Source of the DNA: a bacterium
Lineage (GTDB): Bacteria > Fidelibacterota > Marinisomatia > Marinisomatales > JAHJCW01
Direction of reading: 5' to 3'
DNA: 34,803 nucleotides
NCBI GenBank assembly: GCA_030606865.1
Contig: JAUWFQ010000007.1
Location: 1-34,803, forward strand
The notes under the pieces were generated by a model. The model was given only the letters and a program-made list of their open reading frames with translations, ran no database searches and had not been told where the DNA came from. Of the stretch, positions 601-32,926 are shown in pieces. Within the stretch, counting starts at the first letter, position 1. Each line of letters starts with the position of its first letter. Made by a program: the position numbers and the translations under genes.

Positions 601-1092
601 ATGAAAGTATTTTATAAAAGTCATTCTGGTGGTTTTACATTAATAGAAATCATTATTGTAATTGTTATAATAGGTATTATTACTATTGTTGCCGTACCAC
701 AGATGACTAATACATTAAGAACAAAACGATTATATGATGCGGTTGAAAAACTGAATGATGACTTAAATTATTGCAGAGATTATGCAATATCTCAACATAC
801 TAATACTTGGATCGTTTTTAATATTGCCACCAACAGCTATCAAATGTCCTTCGGAACTACTCCCCCTCCAGCAAGTACTCCCTTATATGATCCCGCTCGA
901 AATACGACTGGTGCTTTTATGATTAACACAGATTTCATTGGAATTGCACTTCAATCGGTTTCATTTGCAGGGCTTTCAATTTCATTTAACTGGTGGGGAA
1001 CACCTAGTGAAGGCGGAACTGTTGTTTTGAACAATGGGATCAATACCCATACAACTACAGTTAATGCAGAAACTGGTTATGTTCAAAGGTAA
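601..1092 (+). CDS. Prepilin-type N-terminal methylation protein, GspH-like minor pseudopilin
   Basis: 'GGFTLIEIIIVIVIIGIITIVAVPQM' class III signal peptide; position in an H-I-J-K-like order. Confidence 0.88.
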   Translation: MKVFYKSHSGGFTLIEIIIVIVIIGIITIVAVPQMTNTLRTKRLYDAVEKLNDDLNYCRDYAISQHTNTWIVFNIATNSYQMSFGTTPPPASTPLYDPARNTTGAFMINTDFIGIALQSVSFAGLSISFNWWGTPSEGGTVVLNNGINTHTTTVNAETGYVQR

Positions 1093-1579
1093 TTTTCGAT
1101 CACAATCTGGTTTTGCGTTAATGGACTTAGTGATTGGTATCACATTTTTATCATTTGCTTTTTTAGCAACAATGCGGATTATGGATGATTTACAACAAAA
1201 GCTTGACCACAGAGATCTACAAATTCGTGCTACATCTTTAGCAAATAGTATGATGTCAATCATCCGTTCGGTAAATTTTGATGAAAATGCAACATCGCCA
1301 TGGATAATTGCTAGTAACCTAGGTATGGATGGATCGGGCTTATATGATGATGTAGATGACTTTATGCTAAACCCTGCAGGACAAGCTAATTTTGGAGTAG
1401 CCGGAGTCGGATTTGCGATTACAGTAATTGTATTCTATGTTGATCCTTTTAATCCGCCGATGGTACCTTTAACCGGTAATATTTCATCTAATTTTAAAAG
1501 AGTGACTGTGACCGTTAGTCATCCATTATTAACAAACACTATAATACTTTCAGCTATTGTAACGCCTAATGTTTTTTAA
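1079..1579 (+). CDS. Minor pseudopilin, GspI-like
   Basis: 'SGFALMDLVIGITFLSFAFLA' prepilin-like leader with Asp at +5; likely ATG at 1079, overlapping the previous gene (track start 1034 less likely). Confidence 0.72.
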   Translation: MFKGNFRSQSGFALMDLVIGITFLSFAFLATMRIMDDLQQKLDHRDLQIRATSLANSMMSIIRSVNFDENATSPWIIASNLGMDGSGLYDDVDDFMLNPAGQANFGVAGVGFAITVIVFYVDPFNPPMVPLTGNISSNFKRVTVTVSHPLLTNTIILSAIVTPNVF

Positions 1580-2114
1580 AAATAAAAGTGACGGATATAC
1601 GCTCATTGAGCTAGTTGTAACTACAGTTATAGTGGGAATTGTGTCTACAATTTTAGTTTATTTATTAGTCTCAATATTCGGTATATTACAAGAAAATAGA
1701 ATTAAAAAACAATTACTTATGGATGGATATAATGCAACAATAAAATTTGTACGAGAGTTTGAACTTATAAACAATGAACCACATTTAACTTTAGCCACAG
1801 CAAACCAAATCCAATTTAATACTGTTATAGGTGGTGTATTGACAACCATCACATATCAAATTGTAGGTAATGAGTTACAGAGGAGTGTTGGTGTTGGCGC
1901 ACCGGTTGTCTTAAGCACAAATGTTACGGGCCTATTTGAGTATTATCAAAAAAGTCATTTTAATATGCCACCTCCACTTGGTTCTCCAGATAGGTTAAGA
2001 ACCCGTCGTGTTAGACTTACGCTCAACATGCTCGATAATCAGGGTAATAGGAATTATACTTATGTTGCAGATGCGTTTCCTGAGAATTATAGATTTTCCG
2101 GGGGAGGATCATAA
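1569..2114 (+). CDS. Prepilin-type protein, GspJ-like minor pseudopilin
   Basis: 'SDGYTLIELVVTTVIVGIVSTILVYLLV' prepilin leader; overlaps flanking genes. Confidence 0.82.
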   Translation: MFFKNKSDGYTLIELVVTTVIVGIVSTILVYLLVSIFGILQENRIKKQLLMDGYNATIKFVREFELINNEPHLTLATANQIQFNTVIGGVLTTITYQIVGNELQRSVGVGAPVVLSTNVTGLFEYYQKSHFNMPPPLGSPDRLRTRRVRLTLNMLDNQGNRNYTYVADAFPENYRFSGGGS

Positions 2115-3511
2115 TGATAAAATTCAATTATAGATCTAAATTTATAACGGATGAAAGTGGTTTTGCCTTCACTGCCACGGCAACAGTCATTAGTGTTATA
2201 CTTGGTTTAACTATATTGTTTATGGCAAATACTGTAAGAACAGAAAATGTTCGTGTATCGGAATTATATTCAGGGCAAGGTGCCTATTGGGGAGCAGTTA
2301 CCGAAGTGCAGATGGCAGCTGATATGATAAGTACTAATGGAGTTGGAATACTTCCAACCATTACTGCCAATTTTCCCAATATTACTGTTACTAGTATAGA
2401 TCAAAATAATATTTTAATAGAAAGCCAGGTGATTATTGGTAGTGACAGGGGTGGCGCTCAACGAGCTGCTTCCATAAACATTACAAGCCCACTTTATTCT
2501 ATAATACAAAATGTTGGTGGTGCCACTTTTACTATTACCGGTTTTTCTGAGATAGATGGCGGTAATCTATATATAGGCGATAATGTCAGAATACAATCTT
2601 TTTGGGGCTGGTCATTGGCACGAGTTGGGCGAGATTCTGTGGTTAATTTTTTTATTCCTAATGGGCACACTTTAACTCCTCCCCCCCCCGGCCAAAGTGG
2701 AAATAATTATACAGAAACCAGAATTCCTCCACTGACTATGCCTGTATTTAATCATACTGCTTATAACAATCTGATCACCACAGCCAGCAATATAGCAATA
2801 GATAACTCTGTTGCAGGTGAATATTTTGGTAACACAACTTTGAATATTGGTACACACCCCGGAGGTATTGATCTGCAGGATGTAAACTTTACCAATAGTG
2901 GAATATTTGTTAATGGTGATTTAATAATTGACGGTACCGTTGGTTCAGGAACAAGTATTATAGATAATAATACTGCTGGAAGTCCAGGTTTAATTGTTGT
3001 AAATGGAAATGTTACTCTTAATGGCGATTGGTTTTGGATGGTACCTTCGTTTACCGTACCCGATAATATAATTATTATTTCAAGTGGCAATGTAAATAAA
3101 AATTATGTGAATTTTGGAGAGAGTGTTAATTATCCAAAGAGTACTTGGTCAAATTATGTAAATGAAATATATACATTGGGAAATCTTACAACACCGGGAT
3201 GGTCTCTTGGCTCTAAAATGTTTGGTCAATTTTATGTATTTGGAACATTCGCTTCTATTGGTTGGCTTAGTCGTACGAGCGGTGTTCTTTATTCTCCTAA
3301 TTCACCGTATAATTTTGGAACATTATTCAGTGCATTTCCAAGATTTGATGGTACATTTTTTATTCTGAGTGCTACAAATGACAGAATATCATGGTTTGCT
3401 GATATTAATCTTAATGAAAGAGTTCTTTTAGGTAGAGGGTTAGGCGGTGGACTTACACAGCCTCTTACCATACCCTGGGTAGTTTTACCCGGTACAATAC
3501 AAGAAATTTAA
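2114..3511 (+). CDS. Large pilus/secretion-associated protein with PilX/GspK-like N-terminus and repetitive extracellular region
   Basis: 'SGFAFTATATVISVILGLTILFMA' N-terminal TM lacking Glu+5, as in GspK; K position in the cluster; Asn/Gly/Thr-rich C-terminal part. Confidence 0.65.
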   Translation: MIKFNYRSKFITDESGFAFTATATVISVILGLTILFMANTVRTENVRVSELYSGQGAYWGAVTEVQMAADMISTNGVGILPTITANFPNITVTSIDQNNILIESQVIIGSDRGGAQRAASINITSPLYSIIQNVGGATFTITGFSEIDGGNLYIGDNVRIQSFWGWSLARVGRDSVVNFFIPNGHTLTPPPPGQSGNNYTETRIPPLTMPVFNHTAYNNLITTASNIAIDNSVAGEYFGNTTLNIGTHPGGIDLQDVNFTNSGIFVNGDLIIDGTVGSGTSIIDNNTAGSPGLIVVNGNVTLNGDWFWMVPSFTVPDNIIIISSGNVNKNYVNFGESVNYPKSTWSNYVNEIYTLGNLTTPGWSLGSKMFGQFYVFGTFASIGWLSRTSGVLYSPNSPYNFGTLFSAFPRFDGTFFILSATNDRISWFADINLNERVLLGRGLGGGLTQPLTIPWVVLPGTIQEI

Positions 3512-4012: not shown

Positions 4013-4039
4013 GTGTCATATTGACACAGAGTGTATCAA
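4013..4039. promoter_or_regulatory. Candidate enhancer (UAS) dyads for a sigma-54 activator
   Basis: Perfect palindrome GTGTCA-TAT-TGACAC (4013-4027) overlapping a second dyad ACAC-AGA-GTGT (4024-4034); about 80 bp upstream of the -24/-12 element. Confidence 0.5.
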
Positions 4040-4102: not shown

Positions 4103-4119
4103 TTGGCACGGTATTTGTT
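4103..4119 (+). promoter_or_regulatory. Sigma-54 (-24/-12) promoter for the pilin gene
   Basis: TTGGCACGGTATTTGTT against consensus YTGGCACGRNNNTTGCW: one mismatch (C to T in the -12 GC), correct spacing, upstream of the ATG at 4214. Confidence 0.75.
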
Positions 4120-4213: not shown

Positions 4214-4597
4214 ATGAAAAGAGAACAAGGTTTTACGTTAATAGAATTAATCGTAGTTATTGCGATTATAGGAGTTTTAGCCGCCGTTGCGGTTCCTGCC
4301 TTTATTAATGTAGTAGATGATGCACAACAAGCAAATATGGATGCAGTTGAAGGTACAATGAGAAGCGCTGTTACAATGTGGGCTTCTGATCAATTAATGA
4401 CAGCTGGTACCTATGCATATCCACCTGCAGCTACTGTTACGATTGCAAATATGACAGCAGAAGGTTTCATTCCTGATTGGACCGATAATGGAGCCGGTAC
4501 ATGGACCTATGCACCAGCACCTACTGGAACATTAGTTTATGCTCCTGTTACAGTGGGCGGTGTAAATACAGGTTATACAATTACGCCAACCTTCTAA
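4214..4597 (+). CDS. Type IV major pilin / GspG-like prepilin
   Basis: 'EQGFTLIELIVVIAIIGVLAAVAVPAFINVVDDAQQANMDAVEGTMRSAV'; RBS 'aaaggaga'; own promoter and terminator. Confidence 0.9.
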   Translation: MKREQGFTLIELIVVIAIIGVLAAVAVPAFINVVDDAQQANMDAVEGTMRSAVTMWASDQLMTAGTYAYPPAATVTIANMTAEGFIPDWTDNGAGTWTYAPAPTGTLVYAPVTVGGVNTGYTITPTF

Positions 4598-4696: not shown

Positions 4697-5071
4697 ATGT
4701 TTTGGTTACGAGAAGACGGTATAGCCGGAATAGAAATGGTGGTGCTTTTTGCAATAGTTGGCATTCTTACTTTTACTGTAGTTCCATATTACACCAGTTT
4801 AACAAATCATGCTCATGATGCCAAAGTAAAGGCAATGTACAGTATGATCAATGCTTCTGTTATAGGATCTTCGGTTGATAGTGTGGCTGTAGGGTGGGAC
4901 AAATCTGTTCCTGACCCCTCACAATTAACAATAAAAAATACTGCAGCGTGGTTTGATTCAAAAAATTGGTCTGATAATAAATCATGAAAATGGAAGTATC
5001 TTCCAACAGGTGCGACAATAGTTTATAATAAAATTAGTCAGGATGATTACTCGCTTGTGCTCAATTTATAA
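4697..5071 (+). pseudogene. Second pilin-like gene, interrupted by in-frame TGA (4985-4987)
   Basis: Prepilin-like 'DGIAGIEMVVLFAIVGILTFTVVPYY' with Glu+5; ORF stops at 4987 but the same frame continues 'KWKYLPTGATIVYNKISQDDYSLVLNL' to TAA 5069-5071, resembling the C-terminal part of the 4214 pilin. Confidence 0.65.
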
Positions 5072-5271: not shown

Positions 5272-8200
5272 ATGAAATTTATTAGAAATCAAACTGCCGG
5301 ATTGCTATTAATCATAATTACTAATGTATTATTTGCGGGCGCAATTGATACTAGTTGGGTTAGCAATATGTTTTCTAGAGAGGATGGTAATATTTCCATC
5401 ATTCCGGAATTTGATGATGCTTATGGCGTCGCATTCCGCGATATTAATAATGACGGTTTACCCGATTTGTATGTAACGCGCTTCCGTGAATTAAATCGAT
5501 TGTTAATAAATCGTGGTCTTGGTTTATCTTTTAGAGATCAAACGATCCGAACCGGTTTAGGTGGAAATTTAGCGCCGCATAGATTGCAAAATTTAGAATT
5601 GGGTGCCGGTATTATTGATTTTAATAATGATGGTTTGCATGATGTATTAACTACTGGTTGGGGTGTAACAACTACACTTTATAAACAACAAAAAGTGTTT
5701 GATTATAATAATGTGACTGGTAACATCGGTTTGGAACACCCTATCAGCGGAAATGCAGGAATATGGGCGGATATAGATATTGACGGTGATTTAGATTTAT
5801 TTATTACTGATGAACATGGCAAAAATCATTTATATGTTCAATCAAAACCGGAAGTATTTACTGAATTAGCGGATGAGTTTGGTTTGGATGGTCATCATAT
5901 TAGTCAGGGAGCCGCTTTTGGCGATTTGAATGCCGATGGATACCCCGATTTATATATTTGCAATTGGTTCGAACCCGATATGTTATTTATCAATAATAGG
6001 GGTAATAATTTCGAAAGAGCGTCTGTACTTATTACTCATTTAACCGATTCATTGAATTCAAATGGTGTTACCTTTGGTGATTTGGATAATGACGGTGATT
6101 TAGATATTTTGGTAACTGATCGTAATAATTCCAGCAAATTATATCGTAACGATTTTAATTCTACAACAACTACTATCGGGTTTACCGATGTAACCGATAA
6201 TTCATTACTATTTAATAATTATCCGGCATATTCCGGAAATATTGCTGATTTCAATAATGATGGATTACTTGATATATTTTTTACAAATATTGGACCAAAT
6301 CTGTTATTCATTAATCAAGGGAATATGAAATTTCAATTAGCTTACGAAGAGCAGATCAAGGATCACGAATACCCTGATGCAAATTACAGCACAGGTGCAG
6401 CAGTAGCAGATTTGGAAAATGATGGAGATTTGGATTTATTTGTATCAAATAAAGATACGTATAGTAAACTATATGTAAATCCTTTGGAGAATAGTAATTA
6501 TCTTAGATTTGAATTGGAAGGGATTTACAGTAATCGAGATGCTGTAGGTACCAAAGTATGGTTATTTGAGGAATCTGATTCTGTCGGAAGTAACCAATTA
6601 ATAGGATATAGAGAGATTTCAAGCAGTTCTGGTTATTTATCAGCGAGTGAATTAACTGCACATTTTGGAGTAAAATTAAATAAAACATATGCCCTTAGAG
6701 CGCTTTTTCCTTTGGGAAGAGAGATCAAATTAAATAATATAATCCCTAATCAGATTATCAAGATTGATGAAGTTACCGGAATATTAAAATATTCAAAACG
6801 TGCACAGCAATTTATTGCTTCGGTTATTCGACAGCCTTCCTTTTTAAATAATTTAGGATTGATACTTTTATTAATTATTATGATAGGTATATTTACCTCT
6901 CTCGCTATTAAGCGATATTTATGGAAATCAAAACAGACCGCAATATTTTTAGTAATAATTCTATCAATTTTATATATTTTCTGGTCTGGAATGCGCAATC
7001 GTCCCTTGGCGGAAACACTGGGAGTGCAAATCTTTGTAATATTGGTAATATTTATTTTTACAACCGGATTTATGGAAAAGTTACGGCAAGTGAATAATAA
7101 GCGGTTTGAATACAGACGTGTCCTACATCGATTTTCAGAAGACCTTATTTTTATCAGGAATAATTCAAAATTATATAATCAGTTGGTTACCATGATTCAA
7201 AGTTCTTTAGGAGCAAGATTTACCGGTGTTGTTGAGATAAAAAACGGAAAAACAGGCAAACAATATTTTTCAACACCGAATAGTATAAAATGGGATACAA
7301 TCACTTTTTCAGACGAGCAGATTAGGATTCTTTTAGCAAATAATAGCATCACAGAGACAAAAATAGTTAAGGAGTTGCAACAATTCCCTGCTGATATAGA
7401 TCTTGTTATTCCATTAAAAAGACAGGCAAAACTATACGCGATTCTAATTTTAATCAGTAATGAAAACACTAAATTCTACCAATCAGAAGATATTACTTTA
7501 TTGGCAACTGTAGCCAATCAAGCTTCGCTAGCAATAGAGAATAATTTATATATCGAAGAGACTAAAGCATTAACCAAATCATTGACGGAATCGCAAGTGC
7601 AAAAGCGCTATGTTAATGAATTAGAAGAAAAGAATCGTAATTTGGAAGAATTATTTACTGAATTAAAGGAAACTCAATCTCAATTAATTCAGAGTGAAAA
7701 GATGTCAAGTTTGGGTCAATTGGTAGCCGGTGTTGCTCACGAATTGAACAATCCAATTGGGTATTTATATGCCAATATGAAGGAACTGCAAAAATATATC
7801 GATTTACTGAAACAAAGCGAAGGAGGAAAGATCGGAGATTCCGCGGAATATGTTAAAGAGGATATTGATCAATTAATTTTGGAAAGTATCGAAGGCAGCG
7901 AGCGTGTAAAAACAATTGTAGAGAATCTGCGTAAATTTTCTCGCTTAGACGAAGCGGAGTTCAAATATGCAGATATTCATGAAGGATTAGATTCTACCAT
8001 TATGTTAATTGAAAAGGAATTGGACAATCGCATTAAATTGCATAAAAATTATTCTGATATACCACAAATCAGTTGTATGCCAGGGCATCTAAACCAAGTG
8101 TTTTTAAATATGCTGCTGAATGCAATACAAGCTATCGAAGGTGACGGGAATATTTGCATTTCAACTGCAATTAAAGATGATAAAGTTGTTATTAAATTTA

Positions 8201-8412
8201 AAGATGACGGAAAAGGAATTTCTAAGAAATATATTGATAAAATATTTGAACCATTTTTTACAACAAAACCGGTTGGAATGGGAACGGGCTTAGGCTTGAG
8301 TATCAGTTATGGAATTATTCAAGAACATGGCGGTGATATAAAAGTAAAAAGTAAAAAGAAAAACGGAACAACATTTATCGTTTCAATTCCATATAAACCA
8401 AAGAAAAAATAA
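5272..8412 (+). CDS. Sensor histidine kinase with extracytoplasmic FG-GAP/VCBS-like propeller + ASPIC/UnbV domain, three TM helices, GAF-like domain, HisKA/HATPase
   Basis: About seven 'DxNxDGxxD' FG-GAP-type repeats; 'GTKVWLFEESD...SSSGYLSASELTAHFGVK' ASPIC/UnbV-like; H-box 'LVAGVAHELNNPIGYL', N-box 'LNMLLNAIQAI', G-boxes 'DDGKGIS' and 'GMGTGLGLSISYGIIQEHGG'. Confidence 0.9.
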   Translation: MKFIRNQTAGLLLIIITNVLFAGAIDTSWVSNMFSREDGNISIIPEFDDAYGVAFRDINNDGLPDLYVTRFRELNRLLINRGLGLSFRDQTIRTGLGGNLAPHRLQNLELGAGIIDFNNDGLHDVLTTGWGVTTTLYKQQKVFDYNNVTGNIGLEHPISGNAGIWADIDIDGDLDLFITDEHGKNHLYVQSKPEVFTELADEFGLDGHHISQGAAFGDLNADGYPDLYICNWFEPDMLFINNRGNNFERASVLITHLTDSLNSNGVTFGDLDNDGDLDILVTDRNNSSKLYRNDFNSTTTTIGFTDVTDNSLLFNNYPAYSGNIADFNNDGLLDIFFTNIGPNLLFINQGNMKFQLAYEEQIKDHEYPDANYSTGAAVADLENDGDLDLFVSNKDTYSKLYVNPLENSNYLRFELEGIYSNRDAVGTKVWLFEESDSVGSNQLIGYREISSSSGYLSASELTAHFGVKLNKTYALRALFPLGREIKLNNIIPNQIIKIDEVTGILKYSKRAQQFIASVIRQPSFLNNLGLILLLIIMIGIFTSLAIKRYLWKSKQTAIFLVIILSILYIFWSGMRNRPLAETLGVQIFVILVIFIFTTGFMEKLRQVNNKRFEYRRVLHRFSEDLIFIRNNSKLYNQLVTMIQSSLGARFTGVVEIKNGKTGKQYFSTPNSIKWDTITFSDEQIRILLANNSITETKIVKELQQFPADIDLVIPLKRQAKLYAILILISNENTKFYQSEDITLLATVANQASLAIENNLYIEETKALTKSLTESQVQKRYVNELEEKNRNLEELFTELKETQSQLIQSEKMSSLGQLVAGVAHELNNPIGYLYANMKELQKYIDLLKQSEGGKIGDSAEYVKEDIDQLILESIEGSERVKTIVENLRKFSRLDEAEFKYADIHEGLDSTIMLIEKELDNRIKLHKNYSDIPQISCMPGHLNQVFLNMLLNAIQAIEGDGNICISTAIKDDKVVIKFKDDGKGISKKYIDKIFEPFFTTKPVGMGTGLGLSISYGIIQEHGGDIKVKSKKKNGTTFIVSIPYKPKKK

Positions 8413-8415
8413 TAG

Positions 8416-9846
8416 ATGAATCCAACAATATTAATAGTTGATGATGAACAACATGTCCTGAATTCTATCAATCGCACTTTGCGGCATGATTATAATGTTA
8501 TTTTATCATTAGATGGCAAATCGGCATTACAAGTATTACGTGAACAAGAGGTATCAGCAATTTTAGCCGATCAGCGTATGCCGGGACTTACCGGTTCGGA
8601 ATATTTTCACGAAGCAAGAAAAATTCAACCCGATACAACTCGCGTATTAATAACGGGTTACTCCGATATTGAAGCGGTAATACAAGCTGTTAATGACGGA
8701 CAAATATATTATTACATCGAAAAACCTTGGGAACCGGAAGATTTAAAATTGGTGATGATAAGAGCGGTTGAACGTTATCAGTTAATTAAAAAAAATAAAG
8801 AGTTATTGTATGAGTTGGAAGTCGCCAATCAGTTGTTGAGTAATGAAAACATTATATTAAAAAAAGATGTAGAACAAAAATACAATTTTTCAAATATAAT
8901 TGGTGAAAGTAAAGCCATGAAGGATGTGTATGATTTAATGAGAAAAGTCATACCAACTGACACCACGGTTTATATTTCGGGTGAAACCGGAACGGGGAAA
9001 GAATTGAGTGCCAGAGCCATTCATTTTAACGGACCTCGTAAAGATAAAATATTTGCAGCTCAAAATTGTGCCGCCTTACCCGATACTTTACTTGAAAGCG
9101 CTTTATTTGGACATAAAAAAGGTTCTTTTACCGATGCTACATCGGATAAAAAAGGATTGTTTGAAGTAGCTGATGGAGGAACTGTATTCTTGGATGAATT
9201 ATCGGATACATCTCCGGCTTTACAACAACGATTATTGCGAGTGATCCAGGAAGGAGAATTTCAATCTGTTGGATCAAATAAAACAATAAAAGTTGATGTA
9301 AGGATTCTTTCTGCAACCAATAAAGATTTGCTGTATTTAGTCCAACAAGGAAAGTTCCGAGAAGATTTGTATTATAGAATTAATGTGTTTCCAATCCGGG
9401 TTCCACCACTTAGAGAGCGAATGGATGACATACCTTTACTCGCAAATTATTTCCTAAATAAATATATGATTCAAGCCGGTAAAGAGATTAAAGGTTTTTC
9501 TGAAGACGCTATAAAATATTTGTTATCCAATAAATTTCCGGGAAATGTTCGCGAATTAGAGAATATGATCCAACGCGCTGTAATATTATCCGGCAATGAG
9601 CAAACATTATCTTTAAGCCATTTGCAAACAGAATGGGAAGCGGGTAAATCAATAATAAGCACAATACCTGATTTTCAGTCTGATATTCAATTATCATCAT
9701 TACCAAAACTTGTCGAAGAATTTGAAAAAAAATACATTTCACAATCACTTGAATCAAATCAAGGGAATATTAGTAAAACTGCTATTGAGCTAGGTTTAAG
9801 CAGAGCAGGTTTATATAAAAAGTTAAAACGCTATAACCTTGATTAG
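8416..9846 (+). CDS. NtrC-family sigma-54-dependent response regulator (REC-AAA+-Fis HTH)
   Basis: REC 'ILIVDDEQHV...ADQRMPGLTG...KPWEPEDL'; Walker A 'GETGTGKE'; GAFTGA-equivalent 'GSFTDA'; 'FLDELSDTSPALQQRLLRVIQEGEFQSVGS'; C-terminal Fis-type HTH. Confidence 0.96.
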   Translation: MNPTILIVDDEQHVLNSINRTLRHDYNVILSLDGKSALQVLREQEVSAILADQRMPGLTGSEYFHEARKIQPDTTRVLITGYSDIEAVIQAVNDGQIYYYIEKPWEPEDLKLVMIRAVERYQLIKKNKELLYELEVANQLLSNENIILKKDVEQKYNFSNIIGESKAMKDVYDLMRKVIPTDTTVYISGETGTGKELSARAIHFNGPRKDKIFAAQNCAALPDTLLESALFGHKKGSFTDATSDKKGLFEVADGGTVFLDELSDTSPALQQRLLRVIQEGEFQSVGSNKTIKVDVRILSATNKDLLYLVQQGKFREDLYYRINVFPIRVPPLRERMDDIPLLANYFLNKYMIQAGKEIKGFSEDAIKYLLSNKFPGNVRELENMIQRAVILSGNEQTLSLSHLQTEWEAGKSIISTIPDFQSDIQLSSLPKLVEEFEKKYISQSLESNQGNISKTAIELGLSRAGLYKKLKRYNLD

Positions 9847-9849
9847 ATT

Positions 9850-9888
9850 GTATACTATGTATACAGTTGATGCGCATACATAGTATGC
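9850..9888. promoter_or_regulatory. Paired dyad operator, candidate UAS
   Basis: GTATAC-TAT-GTATAC (9850-9864) and GCATAC-ATA-GTATGC (9874-9888), centres 24 bp apart; related half copy ATACATAGTAA at 9914-9924. Confidence 0.6.
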
Positions 9889-9950
9889 ACATTGTTCTCA
9901 TAATCCCTTATAAATACATAGTAAATAATAGATAAATACTTGATATATCT

Positions 9951-9983: not shown

Positions 9984-10000
9984 TTGGCATAGTTATTGTG
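9984..10000 (+). promoter_or_regulatory. Sigma-54-like (-24/-12) promoter for the Tyr-rich lipoprotein gene
   Basis: TTGGCATAGTTATTGTG: GG and -12 G at canonical spacing; T for C in the -12 GC; 40 bp upstream of the ATG. Confidence 0.6.
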
Positions 10001-10039
10001 TCTAATAAAGTAGAATATAAAATTCGATGAGGTGAAAAA

Positions 10040-11467
10040 ATGAAAAAGATAAAATATTCAATAACTTTAATCGCTACCTTAGGTGCAGTATTGATTTTGC
10101 AAGGATGTTACACACAGATGGAATTGACTAAAAAAGTTAAGGTTACTAGACGACCTGCATATGAAACAAGAACCTATACTTATACGTTACCGGCGGAAAT
10201 TGATTCGTTGGTTTATTATCAAGATGAAGATGGAAACATTTACTATAAAGATGTATATGGAAATATAAATTATGTAGAAGATGATTCAAGTTTTTCGGCA
10301 GCTTACCAAAAAGGTTTTGCAATTAATACTCCTGTTACAAAAGTAAAGGAATATCATCATTATTATTACGATGATCCTTTCTATTATGATAGTTATGACC
10401 CATATTATAATGATTTATGCTGGAATATTAGTTTCTCATGGGGTAATCGTTATTATAGACCATATCGCTATTATAATTACTCACCCTATCACTGGGATAG
10501 ATATTATACAGGTTGGTATGGGGATTACTCTTATTACGATCCATATTGGGGTTACAGCCCATGGTATTCCTATAATCATGGATATTATTGGTCACATCAT
10601 TATTCAAACAACTGGGGTGGTTATTGGTACGGAGATTACTACGGGTATTATAAATATAACAAAAATTATAACCGCGATAAACGCGATTGGGATCGCCGTG
10701 GAAGCAATACTAGAGACAGAAACAGCTATCGCAACCGGAACAATACCAATAATGATTACGAATATACAAAAAGAGTATCTAATCCGGTAAGTGGAACTAA
10801 AACGAAGGTTACAAAGAAACGAACTGTGATTAAAAGATCTAATAGCAGTATAGAACAACGAGCTCCAAGAAAATCTTCTGGCACAGAAATTAAAAGAACT
10901 CGTACACGAACAGATGATGTGCAAAGAAATAACAGTAAACAGAATACGAAATCGAATACAAGAGTCCGCTCTACTACCAGAAAAAATACTAGTAGTAATT
11001 TAAATCGGACTTCACAAGTGAGTACTAATTCTGTACGTGTTAGAACTCAAACTACGATTAGACCAAGTACTCAAAAAAGCAATAATAGGACACAAACTGT
11101 AAAGAGAGCAACATCTCGAAAACAGATGGCAGTAAATCGTTCATCAACACAGAAATATGTAAGGCAACAAACCGTTTCAAATAAAAGAAGTACCATTAAA
11201 AGTAATTATACGAAACAGACGCGCTCTGCGATTAAATCTACGAAAGCAATAACTACAAAATCAAAGACGTATGCTTCAAAAACACCGAGTAGAAAATCGA
11301 CATCGGCAAAGAGCTACAACAGGACTAGTTCAAACCGTAGCTCCTCGAGTCGGTCAAGCGGATCGTTATCATATCGCTCAAATAGCGGTAGCCGATCTTC
11401 TTCAGCAGCCTCCAGCTCACGTAGCTCGTCAAGTGGTAATTCTAGCAGTAGATCACGAAGAAAATAG
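10040..11467 (+). CDS. Lipoprotein with Tyr/Trp/Gly-rich central segment and Ser/Thr/Arg/Lys-rich low-complexity tail
   Basis: Lipobox 'LILQGC'; 'YYDDPFYYDSYDPYYND...'; tail 'SSNRSSSSRSSGSLSYRSNSGSRSSS...RSRRK'; RBS 'gaggtga'. Confidence 0.82.
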   Translation: MKKIKYSITLIATLGAVLILQGCYTQMELTKKVKVTRRPAYETRTYTYTLPAEIDSLVYYQDEDGNIYYKDVYGNINYVEDDSSFSAAYQKGFAINTPVTKVKEYHHYYYDDPFYYDSYDPYYNDLCWNISFSWGNRYYRPYRYYNYSPYHWDRYYTGWYGDYSYYDPYWGYSPWYSYNHGYYWSHHYSNNWGGYWYGDYYGYYKYNKNYNRDKRDWDRRGSNTRDRNSYRNRNNTNNDYEYTKRVSNPVSGTKTKVTKKRTVIKRSNSSIEQRAPRKSSGTEIKRTRTRTDDVQRNNSKQNTKSNTRVRSTTRKNTSSNLNRTSQVSTNSVRVRTQTTIRPSTQKSNNRTQTVKRATSRKQMAVNRSSTQKYVRQQTVSNKRSTIKSNYTKQTRSAIKSTKAITTKSKTYASKTPSRKSTSAKSYNRTSSNRSSSSRSSGSLSYRSNSGSRSSSAASSSRSSSSGNSSSRSRRK

Positions 11468-11481
11468 AAATAAGGAAAATA

Positions 11482-12852
11482 ATGAAAATGTTTATAACTA
11501 AGCTGACAATAGGAATACTATTTACCATTGGAATGGTGAGCGGACAAAGTGCCTATGATGCAATACATATTACGGAAAATGAAGAAGGATTTGGTACGCG
11601 CGCTTTAGCGATGGGCGGTGCTTACACTGCTTTGGCAAATGATTACTCGGGAATTTATTGGAATCCGGCTGGTTTAGGTTCCATAGATAAAACCGGTATT
11701 TATGCTGAATTGTCTCACATGCAATTTTCTAATGATGCATTATATATGGGGAATTTAACATCAAATAATCAAGGATTTACCAAACTCAAATCACTCGGAT
11801 TTGTGATGCCACTACCTACTAACCAAGGTAGTTTTGTAATAGCCGGCGGTTATAACAGAGTATTAGACTATGATGATCACTTATATTTTGAAGGATTTGG
11901 AGATATTTCTAATGACATCGGTTTTGAGATTGAAGATGATAACGGTGATATCTACTTTTATCCATTTGATCAGGGTGTTTATAGACAAGAAGAAGTCCGT
12001 AGCGAGGGTGGTTTACGTCAGTGGAGCCTCGGTGGAGCCATTGCGCTTTCTCCTAACTTTACAATTGGGTTAACAACATCATTGGTACATGGTAAAGAAG
12101 AATACAATTTTGGATTTTCCCAATTTGACGATGATGATCTGTATTATGAATATCCCGGTGATTTTGATGAATATACAGTTAATCAGTATTTACAGTCAGA
12201 TTATTATGCTCTGAATCTAAAACTTGGTGGTATGGTTGACCTTAATAATATGTTGAGAGTTGGAGGAGTTATTACTTTACCGTCCAAATATTATGTTGAG
12301 GAAACTCATTCTTTTAGTGATGACTTAGTCTTTGATGATGGTACTAGTGATCCAACTGAGGATACTGGTAATTTTGATTACCATGTTAAAACACCGTTTA
12401 TATTTGATGCGGGATTGGCGTTTACGAATAAACTGATTACCGTATCAGCCGCTGCGCGTTATCGCGATTGGTCACAGACACGTTTTGAGGTTTCAGAATG
12501 GGAATTGGATGACCAAGATTATCGTGATATCGTTAATGAGAATAATATATTAGCACGTGATTATGATCAAGTCCTTGAATATAGATTAGGTGGCGAAGTA
12601 ACCTTACCCGGATTAAATACAAAATTACGGGCTGGCTACACGTTGATACCACCGCCATTGCGTGATTCAACTGACGAGCGCATTACTTATAGTGTCGGTG
12701 TTAGTTTTAAGGTTGATAAAAATGTTAGTCTTGATTTTTCATATCTAAAACGCGATTGGACGCGCGATAGCTGGGATATTTATACTCCTGCTGGAGTTAA
12801 TGAAAATATTGAAACACACAAGGTGTTGGTAGGTTTGACGTATAACCTCTGA
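11482..12852 (+). CDS. Outer membrane beta-barrel protein, FadL/OmpP1-like
   Basis: Signal peptide, 'GTRALAMGGAYTALANDYSGIYWNPAGLGSI' motif, alternating beta-strand pattern, C-terminal 'GLTYNL'. Confidence 0.82.
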   Translation: MKMFITKLTIGILFTIGMVSGQSAYDAIHITENEEGFGTRALAMGGAYTALANDYSGIYWNPAGLGSIDKTGIYAELSHMQFSNDALYMGNLTSNNQGFTKLKSLGFVMPLPTNQGSFVIAGGYNRVLDYDDHLYFEGFGDISNDIGFEIEDDNGDIYFYPFDQGVYRQEEVRSEGGLRQWSLGGAIALSPNFTIGLTTSLVHGKEEYNFGFSQFDDDDLYYEYPGDFDEYTVNQYLQSDYYALNLKLGGMVDLNNMLRVGGVITLPSKYYVEETHSFSDDLVFDDGTSDPTEDTGNFDYHVKTPFIFDAGLAFTNKLITVSAAARYRDWSQTRFEVSEWELDDQDYRDIVNENNILARDYDQVLEYRLGGEVTLPGLNTKLRAGYTLIPPPLRDSTDERITYSVGVSFKVDKNVSLDFSYLKRDWTRDSWDIYTPAGVNENIETHKVLVGLTYNL

Positions 12853-12982: not shown

Positions 12983-14611
12983 ATGTATGTTACTCGTCGC
13001 ATATTCGCAATATTATTTATAATCCTATTTATTTTTTCTTGTAAAAAAACATCAACCGGTTCAGATCCAATTGTAGTAACCTTTCTGGATGCTAATTTTG
13101 AAGCACTAATTCGAGAAGTACTGGAGAAACCAACAGGAGATATCCTGAGTACAGATTTACTTACATTAACAACATTAATTGGCAGTACCCGAGAAATAAA
13201 TAATATTTCAGGTATTGAATATAGTACAAAATTAGATACGCTTGATTTAAATGGTAACAATATTAGTGATATTAGCCCCCTCTCTGATTTGATAAATTTG
13301 ACTAAACTGTATTTACATTATAATCAAATCACAGACATTGTTCCGTTAGTTAATAATAGCGGAATTAATAGTGGTGATGAAATATGGCTAGAGAATAATC
13401 CACTAAGTGATATATCAATAAACACATACATTCCACAACTAGAAGCACGTGGTGTGATGGTTCATTACGATGAGCCAGCAACGGTTGTAACATTCTCTGA
13501 TGCGAACTTTGAAGCGATAATACGAGAAACATTAGTAAAACCTAGTGGTGACATCACCAATCTCGATCTTGCAACAATCACCTCCCTAAAGGGGCGCTAC
13601 AAAGATATTAACGATATTTCCGGAATAGAATATTGTACAAATTTAACCTTCCTTGATGTATATAATAATCATATTAGTGATATTAGCAAATTATCAGGTT
13701 TGACTAATCTTGCAGACCTTTATATTGGACGAAATGACATTACTGACATTAATACTCTTATGAATTTGACTGGCTTGACCACACTTGTAATAAGTAATAA
13801 CAATATTAGTGATATCAGTATTATTTCCGGTTTTCAATATTTAACATATTTAGCTATTGGTGGGAATCCATTAAACGATCTCTCTGTAGTAGAAGGTTTA
13901 ACAAGCTTAGAAAGTATTAGTATTAATTCTCTGCAGTTACCGGATTTAAGTATTCTTTCAAACTTAACGAACTTGACCAGGATCGAGGCTAGATATAGTC
14001 AGATAAATGACATTTCTGCCCTGTCTAATCTAATTGCCCTAGAATATTTATGTTTAAATGGAAATTCAATAGCAGATTATTCTCCTATTGCAGGATTAAC
14101 AAATCTTAGAAATCTTTCACTTGATAATAATCATATGACTGATATTAGCTTTATAAGCAATCTGACTAACATTGAATCTCTTAATATCTTTTATAATGAC
14201 ATAACCGACATAAGCGTAGTATCAAATTTGACAAAATTGGAAAGACTATATTCTGGACATAACCAAATATCTGATATTGGTGCTTTATCCAATTTAACTG
14301 AATTGGAATATCTTGATTTTTCTGCAAATTCTGCTGTGTCGGACATTAGTGCGCTCGCAGTTTTGGTTAATCTAAAATATTTATATATGTTCCATGATGA
14401 TGTTGTAGATATAAGTCCCTTACTGAATTTGGTGAACTTAATTAAACTAAACTTACATGATAATGATATAGTTGATATTGAAACTTTAGTCAATAATAGC
14501 GGAATTAATAGCGGTGATGAAATATGGCTGGAGAATAATCCACTAAGCAACACATCAATTAACACTTATATTCCTGCTCTTGAGGCACGGGGAGTAACGG
14601 TTCATCAGTAG
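12983..14611 (+). CDS. Leucine-rich-repeat lipoprotein (internalin/SDS22-type LRRs)
   Basis: Lipoprotein signal 'IILFIFSCKK'; many 'LTNLxxLxLxxNxIxDIS' repeats. Confidence 0.88.
   Translation: MYVTRRIFAILFIILFIFSCKKTSTGSDPIVVTFLDANFEALIREVLEKPTGDILSTDLLTLTTLIGSTREINNISGIEYSTKLDTLDLNGNNISDISPLSDLINLTKLYLHYNQITDIVPLVNNSGINSGDEIWLENNPLSDISINTYIPQLEARGVMVHYDEPATVVTFSDANFEAIIRETLVKPSGDITNLDLATITSLKGRYKDINDISGIEYCTNLTFLDVYNNHISDISKLSGLTNLADLYIGRNDITDINTLMNLTGLTTLVISNNNISDISIISGFQYLTYLAIGGNPLNDLSVVEGLTSLESISINSLQLPDLSILSNLTNLTRIEARYSQINDISALSNLIALEYLCLNGNSIADYSPIAGLTNLRNLSLDNNHMTDISFISNLTNIESLNIFYNDITDISVVSNLTKLERLYSGHNQISDIGALSNLTELEYLDFSANSAVSDISALAVLVNLKYLYMFHDDVVDISPLLNLVNLIKLNLHDNDIVDIETLVNNSGINSGDEIWLENNPLSNTSINTYIPALEARGVTVHQ
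13346..13465 (+). repeat. 120-bp direct repeat, copy 1, within LRR gene
   Basis: Ungapped match to 14486-14605; core 13352-13407 differs from 14492-14547 at 2 of 56 positions. Confidence 0.85.
14486..14605 (+). repeat. 120-bp direct repeat, copy 2, within LRR gene
   Basis: See copy 1; encodes 'LVNNSGINSGDEIWLENNPLSNTSINTYIPALEARGVTVH'. Confidence 0.85.
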
Positions 14612-14620
14612 ATAAAAAAG

Positions 14621-14694
14621 TACCCCGGACAGGATTCGAACCTGTGGCCCACAGCTTAGAAGGCTGTTGCTCTATCCAGCTGAGCTACCGGGGC
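14621..14694 (-). tRNA. tRNA-Arg (anticodon TCT)
   Basis: Minus strand GCCCCGGTAGCTCAGCTGGATAGAGCAACAGCCTTCTAAGCTGTGGGCCACAGGTTCGAATCCTGTCCGGGGTA: cloverleaf, T-loop GGTTCGAATCC, anticodon loop CTTCTAA. Confidence 0.95.
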
Positions 14695-15229: not shown

Positions 15230-16510
15230 ATGAATATTTCTTTGTCTATTAGATTATCTACTATAATACTATTTTTGTTATTTGTTGGAGTTTTTGGTCA
15301 AAACCCAATTGTAAAAAAAATTGTGTTTATTGGTCAGAGTAAAACAAAACCGTATATATTAAAACGAGAAATTCAGCATCTTAAAAATGTTCCATTAGAT
15401 TTTTCACTAGCTGAAGCAGATAGACAACGTCTTGAAAATCTAGGAATATTCAGCATGGTGACATTGCAAGTATTCAATCAAAATCAAAATGAAGTTGTGT
15501 TACGGTATACATTAATTGAATCATGGCGGTTTTTTCCGATGATAACACCTATATATGATGAGAAATGGGGTTGGTCGGTTGGTGCAATGTTAATGATCAA
15601 TAATTTTCGAGGAAGGAATGAATCCTTTTCAATTCAAGGTCAATATGGCGGACAAAACACACTTGGTATTGAATTTATTAACCCTTGGATTGCAGGTGAC
15701 CATATATCATTTCAATTTGGAGCAGGGAATAATATTTATGATCATACTTTTTTGCCCTATGATATTAATAGTAATAATTTTCAATTTGGATTAGGCAAAT
15801 ATTTTACGAATGAAATTAGGGCAAAAATAGGATTAAAAGTAATTGATAGAACTTATTCTAATGAAACGATTACTAAGAACTACCAGTATGTTATTCCACA
15901 TCTAAATATAATGTATGATACAAGGGATTTATATGCTAATCCAAGTGAGGGAATTATCAGTGCGAATAGTATCTTTTATAGATTAGGTATTAAAGGTGAT
16001 AAAAATAACCAATTGGTATGGAATCAATCGACTAGCTATTTTAAGGAACTGATTGGTGGTAGCAGGAACATGGTCGCAGGTGTTAATCTTGCCAGTTTAT
16101 TATCGTTCAGTAAAAATCTTGATGTTTGGTATGATTACCTTGGAGGAGCATATACAATTAGAGGATGGATGGTACCGACAGTTGAATTATATACTAATAG
16201 TGATCAATCTTATAGATTTGGTATGAACTGGATTACGGCTTCAGCTGAAATAAGGCAAATAATTATTCCTAAATTTGCAACTAAGTATAATAATGAATTC
16301 GGACTATCAATTGCGGCATTCGCCGATATTGGAACAATTGATAATAGTATGTCTGAACTAATTCAGCAAGCACCATTGATAGGACTCGGTATTGGAATAC
16401 GCATTCCTTGGCCCGTTATTAAATCTTTAAGATTGGATTATGGTTGGTCCTTTTACCAAGGAAAATATGTAGAGCAGTCACTCCATTTCGCATTTGGCGA
16501 GAAGTTTTAA
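15230..16510 (+). CDS. Omp85/BamA-like outer membrane protein with a POTRA-like domain
   Basis: N-terminal 'IVKKIVFIGQSKTKPYILKREIQHLKNVPLDFSLAEADRQRLENLGIFSMVTLQV' POTRA-like; C-terminal barrel with 'YLGGAYTIRGW' and 'LHFAFGEKF'. Confidence 0.82.
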   Translation: MNISLSIRLSTIILFLLFVGVFGQNPIVKKIVFIGQSKTKPYILKREIQHLKNVPLDFSLAEADRQRLENLGIFSMVTLQVFNQNQNEVVLRYTLIESWRFFPMITPIYDEKWGWSVGAMLMINNFRGRNESFSIQGQYGGQNTLGIEFINPWIAGDHISFQFGAGNNIYDHTFLPYDINSNNFQFGLGKYFTNEIRAKIGLKVIDRTYSNETITKNYQYVIPHLNIMYDTRDLYANPSEGIISANSIFYRLGIKGDKNNQLVWNQSTSYFKELIGGSRNMVAGVNLASLLSFSKNLDVWYDYLGGAYTIRGWMVPTVELYTNSDQSYRFGMNWITASAEIRQIIIPKFATKYNNEFGLSIAAFADIGTIDNSMSELIQQAPLIGLGIGIRIPWPVIKSLRLDYGWSFYQGKYVEQSLHFAFGEKF

Positions 16511-27178: not shown

Positions 27179-28126
27179 TTATAATTTTTTTGATAATACT
27201 TCTATCATATCCTTAGTCATTGTTTCAAGATCGTATTCAGGTTCCCATCCCCATTCTGCTCGAGCAGCGGAATCATCCATACTGTTAGGCCAAGTTTCTG
27301 CAATAGCTTTTTTTACCGGATCTACGTCATAATCTATTGTGAATTCCGGGATATGTTTTCTTATCGCTGCTGCGATGATTTCTGGGTCAAAACTCATCGC
27401 AGTTACATTAAACGCGTTGCGATGTTTTAATCTTGTGGGATCAGCTTCCATTAAATCAATTCCGGCTTTGATTGCATCAGGCATATACATCATATCGAGG
27501 AAAGTTCCTGCCGGAAGATTACATGTATATTTTTTATGCTTAATTGCTTCATAATAGATTTCTACAGCGTAATCGGTTGTACCGCCGCCTGGTAATGTTT
27601 CATTTGATATTATTCCCGGATAACGAACACCTCTTGTATCAACTCCAAATCTTTTAAAATAATAATCGCAAAGTAATTCACCGGCTACTTTAGTTACTCC
27701 GTACATGGTATTTGGTCTTTGTATGGTATCTTGAGGAGTATTATCTAATGGGGTCGTTGGTCCGAATGCTCCGATGGAACTTGGTGTAAAAACAGCGCAT
27801 TTCAAATCACGTGCAACCTCTAAAACATTGTATAATCCATTGATATTTACATTCCATGCTAAAACCGGATTTGCTTCGGCTACTGCCGATAATATGGCAG
27901 CGAGGTGGTATATTGTATCAATATCATGTTTTTTTACAACATTTGCGATTTCTTGAGCATCGACACAGTCGACTATTTCAAAGGGTCCCGAATTTAACAG
28001 TTTTTCACTTGGTTTTGTTTTACGACCGCCTGCCACTACGTTATCATTTCCAAATCTTTCTCTAAGTGACATAGTAAGTTCTGAACCAATTTGTCCGACT
28101 GCTCCGGTAACTAAAATATTTTTCAT
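27179..28126 (-). CDS. L-threonine 3-dehydrogenase, SDR/epimerase type
   Basis: 'ILVTGAVGQIGSEL', 'TIYHLAAILSAVAE', 'YGVTKVAGELLCDYYFKRFGVDTRGVRYPGIIS'. Confidence 0.87.
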   Translation of the reverse strand: MKNILVTGAVGQIGSELTMSLRERFGNDNVVAGGRKTKPSEKLLNSGPFEIVDCVDAQEIANVVKKHDIDTIYHLAAILSAVAEANPVLAWNVNINGLYNVLEVARDLKCAVFTPSSIGAFGPTTPLDNTPQDTIQRPNTMYGVTKVAGELLCDYYFKRFGVDTRGVRYPGIISNETLPGGGTTDYAVEIYYEAIKHKKYTCNLPAGTFLDMMYMPDAIKAGIDLMEADPTRLKHRNAFNVTAMSFDPEIIAAAIRKHIPEFTIDYDVDPVKKAIAETWPNSMDDSAARAEWGWEPEYDLETMTKDMIEVLSKKL

Positions 28127-28271
28127 TTACATCCCTATTATAATGAGGTTATTCGAATTGTATTTTTGTATTAAAATTGTAATAAAAGATATATTTATCT
28201 CAGATATTTAAGTATAAATATTAATTCATTTAGTTAATTAATTTCAATTATATAAGTGTATAAAATCGAAA

Positions 28272-29165
28272 TTATAGCGAGCGACGTTCCCGTATAATGA
28301 GATTAGGAAAAAGCAGATTCAGTAGTATTCTGAAAGGAATTAAAGCTAAAAGAAATATTCCAACTAATATGTTTAAAACATTATCTAATAATTTAGTTTT
28401 GTATTTATTAAAGTATTGCCAAAATGAAAAGTGGGAGCTTACAATCATTTTAATGCGTTTTCGATACACACTTGCTCCGCTTTTATGAGTTATAAAAGAA
28501 TTGGTAGTGTATTGCACATTATAGCCTGCATCCCATATTCTTTTACATAGATCGACATCACTGAAAAACATTGGAAATTGTTCATCAAGTAGACCTATTT
28601 CATCAATAACCTTTTTGGAAATTAATAAAGCGGCTCCTGCTGGTTGATCTACTAATCTAGATTTATTATGATCAAAATCACCCATTTTCCAATAATTGAA
28701 TTCTTTTGAATTTTTAAAAATTTTACTTAACCCAATTGATTCATAAATTATATCTCTCCGACGGGGAAAACGTCTGCAAGAATTTTGGATCCTCCCATCA
28801 GAGAAACGTAATTGCGGAGCAATTGCACCCCAATTACTATTATCTTTTATTTCATTTAATAAATTATTAATTGTACTATTTGGTACAGTTGTATCAGGAT
28901 TGAGTAAAAGTATATAATCACCGTTGGCGTTTTTGATACCTTGATTATTGGCTTTAGTAAAACCAAAATTTTCTTTGTTTTGAATTATTGAAATGTTATT
29001 ATTTTCAATATCATTAATAAGGGAAATTGTATTATCAATAGAATTATTATCAATTAGTATGATTTCCCTATTTACTTCATTCAATTGAGGCAGGAGAGAA
29101 TTAATACAATTAACGATTTCCTTCTCAGAATTATAAGTTACGATGATAATTGAAACGGAAGTCAT
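28272..29165 (-). CDS. Glycosyltransferase family 2 (rhamnosyltransferase-like)
   Basis: 'SIIIVTYNSEKEIVNCINSL', 'NNQGIKNANGDYILLLNPDT', 'PAGAALLISKKVIDEIGLLDEQFPMFFSDVDLCKRI'. Confidence 0.93.
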   Translation of the reverse strand: MTSVSIIIVTYNSEKEIVNCINSLLPQLNEVNREIILIDNNSIDNTISLINDIENNNISIIQNKENFGFTKANNQGIKNANGDYILLLNPDTTVPNSTINNLLNEIKDNSNWGAIAPQLRFSDGRIQNSCRRFPRRRDIIYESIGLSKIFKNSKEFNYWKMGDFDHNKSRLVDQPAGAALLISKKVIDEIGLLDEQFPMFFSDVDLCKRIWDAGYNVQYTTNSFITHKSGASVYRKRIKMIVSSHFSFWQYFNKYKTKLLDNVLNILVGIFLLALIPFRILLNLLFPNLIIRERRSL

Positions 29166-29193
29166 ATATCAATTAAAAGGGGAAAATGATTCT

Positions 29194-30825
29194 CTAATTC
29201 TTTTTGATAAATTGATTAATTAGTTTTGATATTTCTTTCTTATCAAACCGGTGTTCAACACCAAACCAGAAAACATTGGATTTTCGCTCATGGAACGCTT
29301 TATCAGCCCATGCGCGGAATTGGTCATTATGTATTTTTTCTCTTTCGTAATAAAAATTAATGTTGAATCCTTTATATTTATATCGCAAGTCTAAGCGGTA
29401 TTCAATTTTCACTTCAGACCAAAAATCATAATTACCACCAATTTTCAACCATTCATCTTGATAGGAATACTCACGTTCCGGGATTTTATTATCAATTACG
29501 CCATGTCGTTCATAATTAAAAGATGGAATCACAGTTAATTTGTCACTCATATATCCAAAATAGATATAGAAATCATCGGAATCAGGTCCGCTGTGAGCGC
29601 CCCAATGGCGACCATTATAACTCCAATAATCATAATTAATTCTGTCATACCAGTCGGCATTGGGGCGGTCATTCCAATATTTTGTTTTATTTAAATTGGC
29701 GTATTCAATACCGCCAACCAAATAGGGGTTATTGAAAAAACCGTATTTTCGTAATCCGATGATACTTGCTCCCGTGTGATCGGGTTGTCTGATAAAATCA
29801 TCTTGACCCCAAGCATGATCGTTCCTTCCGTACTCAACATATACTTTTAATCCTACCTGCGGGAAAGTCATAGTTAAATAACCGGTAAGCGTCTGATCCC
29901 AAATATCAACTTCTTTATCTTTAAGATATAGTTTTTCAAACGGTAATAGCATGGCTTCTTTGCGAGTGATTGTTTCTCCTTCGGCATATCTCCCACCGGA
30001 TAAATAATTACGTGAGAAGCCTAATGTGATAATCGGTTTTGAATAATAGGTAATTGAAAATAAGATGGAAGTAAAGTGCGGTAACGCGTGATTTTCTTTG
30101 AGTGTGTCAGCATAGAAATAGCGGAAATTAATTCCGAAATCTTTATAGCGTTGTTCCTTGATTGTGCCAATCATTAAATGGGGAAAGCCTGTGGTATTAT
30201 TTGTCATGCTAAGGCTTGAATGATAACCCGAGCCCCACCACATATTAGCATTTGAATAGCCTATGCCTAAACCCTTATAATGTAAATATATTTGCGCCTC
30301 ACGAACACCCGTCTTACTATATACTCCATCGCCATGTGGGCGATTATCATTTAGTCTAGAAAATTTTAGCTCACGATATGGTTGGTCAAATCTTTTTGGC
30401 TTAACTGTATCATGCAGACTATGAAAAAAATCCTGCCAACGTTTAGCATAATCTTTATTTTGATTTGTAAAATAATATGGTTCAAAGCTAAGAGATAAAA
30501 ACTTATTGGTATATGCAAATTGTAATCCTTGGAAAAAAGACATACCTTTGCCAATCCATCTGTCAGAAGTATTTTCTAAATTAGGAGCGTTGTCGTTAAA
30601 AAATAATTCGGTTCTAAAACCAACAGACCAGGAACCATACAAATTGGTATCAGCAATATTTAAAAAAGGTCTTATGAGAAAATTCTTTGAAATAGTTTTT
30701 TGCGAAGCGAATAACTTCTTCTCTTGTTCTAATAAATAGAAAGGATCTGCTTGTACGAATATTTGAGCATTTGGAAATGAAATTAAAATTAGGTTAATAA
30801 TGGTCAATAATTTGAATTTTAGCAT
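29194..30825 (-). CDS. Outer membrane protein, capsule assembly Wzi-like
   Basis: Signal peptide, long beta-barrel pattern, 'ANMWWGSGYHSSLSMTNNTTGFPHLMIGT'; polysaccharide-locus context. Confidence 0.65.
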   Translation of the reverse strand: MLKFKLLTIINLILISFPNAQIFVQADPFYLLEQEKKLFASQKTISKNFLIRPFLNIADTNLYGSWSVGFRTELFFNDNAPNLENTSDRWIGKGMSFFQGLQFAYTNKFLSLSFEPYYFTNQNKDYAKRWQDFFHSLHDTVKPKRFDQPYRELKFSRLNDNRPHGDGVYSKTGVREAQIYLHYKGLGIGYSNANMWWGSGYHSSLSMTNNTTGFPHLMIGTIKEQRYKDFGINFRYFYADTLKENHALPHFTSILFSITYYSKPIITLGFSRNYLSGGRYAEGETITRKEAMLLPFEKLYLKDKEVDIWDQTLTGYLTMTFPQVGLKVYVEYGRNDHAWGQDDFIRQPDHTGASIIGLRKYGFFNNPYLVGGIEYANLNKTKYWNDRPNADWYDRINYDYWSYNGRHWGAHSGPDSDDFYIYFGYMSDKLTVIPSFNYERHGVIDNKIPEREYSYQDEWLKIGGNYDFWSEVKIEYRLDLRYKYKGFNINFYYEREKIHNDQFRAWADKAFHERKSNVFWFGVEHRFDKKEISKLINQFIKKN

Positions 30826-30961
30826 ATTATTCCTTCTACAATAATTTTAATGAATCTAAATTACTGTTTTACTTTCGTAAATAATAAAAGATAACTTACT
30901 AATTATTGTTGAGTAAAAATAATTAAATTCAATCAATGCTTAATATCATCTTGATATAAAT

Positions 30962-31585: not shown

Positions 31586-31591
31586 AGATAT

Positions 31592-32287: not shown

Positions 32288-32397
32288 AAAATTTTTAAAT
32301 TATATTTGTTACTTAAACGATTCAATAAATTGAATAACGGGTATGTAAATATAAAAATATAAGTATTAATTACATATATTTATGATTGTATAAAAAA

Positions 32398-32426
32398 GGC
32401 ATAGATTGTTTTGTCTATGCCTTTTT
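32398..32426. terminator. Bidirectional rho-independent terminator
   Basis: GGCATAGA...TCTATGCC flanked by A6 and T5. Confidence 0.85.
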
Positions 32427-32433
32427 ATTATAC

Positions 32434-32908: not shown

Positions 32909-32926
32909 TCAAACCTACATATTATT

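Follow-up and report, generated by a model that had tools for sequence, protein, structure and literature searches.

A histidine kinase encoded on the 34,803-nucleotide window (the whole stretch of DNA analysed, on a contig of a 2.03 Mb draft genome in 185 contigs) combines a periplasmic sensor with the fold of CRTAC1, three transmembrane helices and a HisKA-type catalytic core in a single open reading frame. The computation establishes this architecture, its conservation, and its linkage to genes for an NtrC-type regulator, a lipoprotein and an outer-membrane barrel, while conserved DNA signals suggest that the kinase switches on one neighbouring lipoprotein/barrel operon. We consider it likely that, after ligand binding, the CRTAC1-fold sensor drives this one sigma54 operon via the regulator and a pair of DNA dyads. 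The kinase core, regulator and circuit belong to familiar types (ZraSR, AtoSC); it is the sensor that differs. The kinase comprises the following parts:

5272..8412, + strand: sensor histidine kinase, whole ORF (1046 aa, ATG start, frame open)
5272..5343, + strand: N-terminal hydrophobic signal segment MKFIRNQTAGLLLIIITNVLFAGA, aa 1-24 (sequence hydrophobicity)
5404..6507, + strand: seven-bladed FG-GAP propeller, aa 45-412 (Pfam FG-GAP_3, DxNxDGxxD loops, AlphaFold2 model, Foldseek match to CRTAC1)
6541..6759, + strand: ASPIC/UnbV domain, aa 424-496 (PF07593 above cut-off)
6841..7080, + strand: three transmembrane helices, aa about 524-549, 553-573 and 579-603 (AlphaFold2 secondary structure, hydrophobicity)
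7174..7542, + strand: GAF-like region, aa 635-757 (sub-cut-off Pfam matches)
7711..8397, + strand: HisKA and HATPase_c catalytic core (Pfam; phospho-acceptor His823 at 7738-7740)

The order of elements in the original prediction (a signal segment, about seven DxNxDGxxD repeats, ASPIC, three transmembrane segments, a GAF-like region and HisKA/HATPase) is confirmed, the GAF assignment being weak. FG-GAP_3 covers six stretches of the ORF (E 1.8e-44), which contains exactly seven DxNxDG loops with their first residues at aa 57, 116, 167, 218, 270, 326 and 380; UnbV_ASPIC matches aa 424-496 with E 1.4e-6 and 28.5 bits (cut-off 23.4). GAF_3 attains E 9e-5 and 23.3 bits against a cut-off of 27, and every GAF match lies under its cut-off. 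HisKA (aa 814-894, 29.5 bits vs a cut-off of 26.9) and HATPase_c (aa 939-1042, E 1.6e-24) make up an orthodox HisKA-class kinase with the H-box histidine and the N, G1 and G2 motifs of the HATPase. His823 lies within the motif VAHELNNP and, like the catalytic motifs, is invariant in 12 orthologues. FG-GAP_3, ASPIC, HisKA and HATPase_c were matched in all 12 full-length members, GAF_3 in seven of them. The N-terminal segment, whose position but not sequence is kept in orthologues, is probably a signal peptide.

A sequence search of the PDB recovered CRTAC1 (9etn) with E 4e-15 for the whole protein and 2.5e-16 for the ectodomain. The AlphaFold2 model of aa 24-632 (ectodomain and transmembrane region, from an alignment of 14 sequences; mean pLDDT 82.8, pTM 0.80) shows a beta propeller and a beta sandwich, together with a juxtamembrane helix and three long hydrophobic helices, the third of which continues into a cytoplasmic helix. 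The top Foldseek match of this model in the PDB was murine CRTAC1 (9etn, E 9.8e-28, 524 columns), with further matches to a BBSome subunit, GlcNAc-binding fungal lectins, integrin alpha heads and the heparin sensor BT4663, the last among the ten best structural matches of the ectodomain model. The ectodomain thus displays the seven FG-GAP blades and following ASPIC/UnbV domain that define the CRTAC1-type fold, and the original reading of the protein as a HisKA kinase with a CRTAC1-like propeller sensor is upheld both by sequence and by AlphaFold2/Foldseek; Pfam likewise identifies the N-terminus as an FG-GAP/ASPIC propeller. The propeller and ASPIC fold is common to CRTAC1 and the secreted CRTAC1-like FG-GAP/ASPIC proteins, but CRTAC1, unlike the window ORF, is without a kinase, and the loop residues of the kinase protein (RFR..NR, GWG, EH, CNW, DR, KD) differ from those of kinase-free CRTAC1-like homologues in the same phylum. 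The FG-GAP/ASPIC module, familiar from secreted and adhesion proteins, would here become a transmembrane signalling sensor.

In a survey of 245 genomes of the phylum, which counted matches that span both propeller and kinase or are ended by a contig end, 15 genomes from seven families of the kinase's own order were found to carry an orthologue: its own genome and 14 further ones of this Marinimicrobia order, with identities of 37-85% and some sequences ended by contig edges. The fragmentation of the source genome into 185 contigs might raise the question of an assembly chimera or a degenerate gene; since full-length relatives occur in several other genomes with intact catalytic motifs, the ORF is not such a chimera, the chance of this explanation is negligible, and the architecture survives the test that the original prediction had set for it.

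Immediately downstream, the window encodes a set of partners and control elements that were absent from the original prediction and are more telling on function:

8416..9846, + strand: NtrC-type response regulator (receiver, sigma54 AAA+ with GSFTDA loop, Fis-type HTH)
9849..9865, + strand: candidate upstream 17-bp dyad TGTATACTATGTATACA (locus comparison, genome-wide dyad search)
9873..9889, + strand: candidate second 17-bp dyad CGCATACATAGTATGCA (24 bp downstream of the first dyad)
9984..10003, + strand: predicted sigma54-type promoter TTGGCATAGTTATTGTGTCT, -24 GG, -12 TTGTG (locus comparison, pattern search)
10040..11467, + strand: gene X, lipoprotein (LQGCYTQ lipobox)
11482..12852, + strand: FadL-superfamily outer-membrane barrel, closest to BamG (NCBIfam, AlphaFold2, Foldseek)

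The regulator gene, starting 3 bp downstream of the kinase gene, encodes the receiver, Walker and GSFTDA motifs of an NtrC-type sigma54 regulator; most orthologous regulators have GSFTDA or GAFTDA in the AAA+ loop, and that of locus L046 has GAFTGA. Kinase and NtrC-type regulator follow one another in all 12 orthologous loci whose contig extends that far, the window being a further case, and after the regulator come X and then the barrel wherever the orthologous contigs continue. In G026 a regulator-X-barrel block is also present on another contig. X is a low-complexity protein whose middle is rich in Tyr, Trp and Pro and which also has a KRDWDRR motif and a basic Arg/Lys/Ser tail; it matched no Pfam family, and its identity among orthologues is 25-47%. 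The model of the barrel (pLDDT 84.6) has BamG (9hiv_F, E 4e-19) as its best Foldseek match, followed by FadL/TodX. Its scores against the NCBIfam models for BamG (NF053685: E 1.6e-14, 53.8 bits, cut-off 250) and PorV (NF033709: 46.4 bits, cut-off 90) leave it far short of both cut-offs, and a better BamG match is found on contig C8 of the same genome. In the BAM of Bacteroidota, BamG2/BamH2 are reported to pair a FadL-type barrel with a lipoprotein in a likely operon (PMC12611786, PMC12578637). The window pair shares this arrangement, and BamG is the best structural match of its barrel; but with the barrel under the BamG family cut-off and X in no family, the likeness to BamG/BamH is a structural, works-like one only.

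The X-barrel pair is also found without the kinase in other families, and is thus not dependent on it. Loci L106-L108, from families without the kinase, have sigma54-like sites upstream of X. The pair looks like an older output module that has been fitted with different sigma54 activators. Near the kinase-free pair, L106 (8152-10164) and L108 (12996-14975) also encode AAA+ sigma54-activator-like proteins of about 660-670 aa; a receiver domain was not matched in the L106 activator.

Both dyads and the -24/-12 site lie between the regulator and X. The -24/-12 pattern is present at 10-11 of its 11 positions in seven of the 11 loci compared, 29-39 bp ahead of the X start, as scored with a pattern partly tuned on the same loci, most sites having already been placed by the textbook pattern; the -12 element reads TTGTG as against the textbook TTGCW. 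The promoter of L046 aligns at nine of 11 positions, and the matches in L037, L038 and L043 are not above chance, p values being derived from 300 first-order Markov resamplings for each of the 11 loci. Genome-wide, the pattern occurs at one or two places each in G000, G001, G004 and G012; a promoter-like match on G000:C157 falls within a gene of the opposite strand and was put down to chance. The genome encodes sigma54. The dyads are found 119 and 95 bp upstream in the window, 118 and 94 bp in L035 and 120 and 97 bp in L038, with similarly placed pairs in L041 and L045; in the AT-rich f10 loci the dyads read TGTAAAT..ATTACA and, as in the case of those in L043 and L046, are not clearly significant. 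With at most one mismatch, the dyad occurs solely at the orthologous locus in G001 and G014, and in G000 twice at the locus and once elsewhere, the reversed control giving no match. Judged by sequence, the putative dyads and promoter appear to be kept at the majority of orthologous loci, with hardly any other occurrence in the genomes.

These elements can be assembled into a candidate circuit. A specific ligand would bind the top face of the propeller, formed by the D-A and B-C loops, and the ASPIC domain and juxtamembrane helix would relay the resulting change through the three transmembrane helices. The kinase would phosphorylate the adjoining NtrC-type regulator, a step for which the adjacency of the two genes in orthologous loci is circumstantial evidence. 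The phosphorylated regulator would bind the two 17-bp dyads and activate sigma54 polymerase at 9984-10003, with a predicted output of one operon for the secreted Tyr/Arg-rich lipoprotein and the FadL/BamG-like outer-membrane barrel.

The pattern of conservation in the sensor bears on the nature of the signal. The propeller has a mean column identity of 0.70, close to the 0.73 of the kinase core, as against 0.52-0.54 for the GAF and transmembrane regions. When the seven blades are averaged, conservation has peaks at -6 (1.00) and +14 (0.99), counted from the calcium loop's first Asp, which is itself invariant; by the secondary structure of the model, the two peaks fall in the D-A and B-C loops, and in propellers of this kind, such as those of integrins, the D-A/B-C face binds ligands. 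Since the invariant residues lie on the ligand face, recognition of a specific ligand is more probable than calcium sensing, and the conservation points to one conserved ligand, arguing against plain Ca2+ sensing. The latter had been put forward in the original prediction, and would have the seven DxNxDG loops bind Ca2+, its loss or gain altering the propeller and kinase. The seven loops are indeed near-canonical, and their Asp residues rank among the best-conserved positions; but DxNxDG A-B loops are general to FG-GAP proteins, where Ca2+ is usually structural, whereas the excess, family-specific conservation is found on the opposite face, in the D-A and B-C loops. Moreover, loop 1 is changed in two orthologues (DINGSG in L045, DFNGDD in L046), and Ca2+ would be near-constant if the organism is marine. 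A calcium sensor is hence quite improbable. The other original suggestion, a surface or polysaccharide ligand, is possible in view of the GlcNAc-binding fungal lectins and BT4663 among the structural neighbours of the model, and a glycan or other envelope or surface polymer is our preferred, if tentative, guess. Alternatively, the propeller could be a feedback sensor that binds misplaced or excess X or barrel and adjusts their expression, akin to an envelope-stress switch. Such a role would fit the conserved linkage of X and barrel as the predicted main target, the ZraPSR-like layout, and the pairing of a strongly basic X tail with an Asp-rich propeller. We regard it as unlikely, as X is fast-evolving (25-47% identity) while the propeller face is near-invariant, unlike a co-evolving pair, and the X-barrel pair is also present without the kinase.

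A different target was suggested by the pilins of the window: the kinase and regulator might form a PilSR-like system controlling the type IV pilins just upstream, with pilin genes at 601-2114, 4214 and 4697 and a sigma54-like site at 4104-4119, one mismatch from the textbook pattern, ahead of the pilin gene at 4214. The comparison of neighbourhoods decided against this reading, which we hold to be highly improbable: pilins are present at the locus in the kinase's own genus only and absent from it in other families, the pilus cluster of G001 contains a separate sigma54 activator, and the dyad before the 4104 site is GTGTCA/TGACAC, not TGTATAC. As for the pilin genes themselves, the site lies about 95 bp ahead of the type IV pilin gene (4214-4597) and its dyad at about 4014-4028; 601-3511 and 4697-4987 hold a minor pilin-like cluster (GspH/ComGD-like at 601, prepilin motif at 1569) with unassigned neighbours, and the G001 pilin cluster has T2SSE and T2SSF genes alongside the sigma54 activator.

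The proposed circuit, from CRTAC1-fold sensor to lipoprotein/barrel operon, can be set against known signalling systems. The nearest solved relative of the kinase core in the PDB sequence search is ZraS (9jfj); among named NCBIfam models, the kinase core is nearest to AtoS, and the regulator is nearest to AtoC. ZraSR and AtoSC pairs are alike in the kinase core, the NtrC-type regulator and the adjoining of a sigma54 regulator to an envelope operon, and by layout (kinase, NtrC-type regulator, sigma54-driven envelope protein) the locus may be an analogue of ZraSR-zraP. However, their sensor domain is unrelated to that of the window kinase, and the output here is a lipoprotein and barrel rather than ZraP. 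A periplasmic propeller joined to a HisKA kinase is also seen in the Reg_prop hybrid sensors of Bacteroides typified by BT4663, which have two propellers plus a Y_Y_Y domain, cross the membrane once ahead of the kinase and carry their regulator (receiver and HTH) fused to it. In contrast, the window kinase has another repeat family, one propeller, ASPIC, three transmembrane helices and a separate NtrC-type regulator encoded by its own gene. Neither Reg_prop nor Y_Y_Y was matched in it by Pfam, which sets it apart from the Reg_prop hybrid systems and agrees with the initial reading that Reg_prop is a different repeat.

Surveys at depth covered the Marinimicrobia and a sample of 297 Bacteroidota genomes; in the latter the full profile drew mostly the kinase cores of other proteins, and a profile of the ectodomain plus transmembrane region was adopted. 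Kinases with two FG-GAP propellers were recovered in the window's phylum (L048, L049, L063) and in one of the 297 Bacteroidota genomes (L077). They likewise combine FG-GAP repeats, transmembrane helices and a kinase, with ASPIC above cut-off in L063 and L077, just under it in L049 and not found in L048; in L048, L049 and L063 an NtrC-type regulator comes next after the kinase, as at the window locus. They differ in an additional N-terminal region of about 300 aa, with YCF48/BNR-like matches in L063 and L077, and L077 has a HisKA_3 core. The presence of such kinases in the phylum and of a HisKA_3-core one in Bacteroidota suggests that the module was joined to kinases repeatedly, or that the core was changed. 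Searches of the open-access literature for FG-GAP or ASPIC together with a histidine kinase or sensor found no relevant paper, in line with the original remark that no characterised kinase of this architecture is known.

With a predicted target operon at hand, a simple reporter could serve to look for the ligand. In its likeness to the BamG/BamH pairs described in 2025, the output may show regulated outer-membrane assembly outside Bacteroidota. Taken further, though on a rather doubtful footing, glycan or surface-ligand sensing by the CRTAC1-fold propeller might bring about an alternative BamG-like barrel and surface lipoprotein, i.e. outer-membrane assembly would be remodelled under environmental control in an uncultured marine phylum.

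The remainder of the window holds several further genes. A lipoprotein-like leucine-rich repeat protein with internalin-like LRRs is encoded at 12983-14611, and the other genomes of the genus have a relative after the barrel. At 15230-16510 lies a gene for a short Omp85 protein (426 aa, one POTRA match) that is BamA-like, too short for BamA, and has 80% identity in G003. A tRNA gene (Rfam RF00005, 71.4 bits) is located at 14621-14694 on the - strand, and surface polysaccharide genes occupy 27179-33676, also on the - strand, coding for an epimerase, a glycosyltransferase, a protein with a weak Wzi-like match, a sugar transferase and WecG/TagA.
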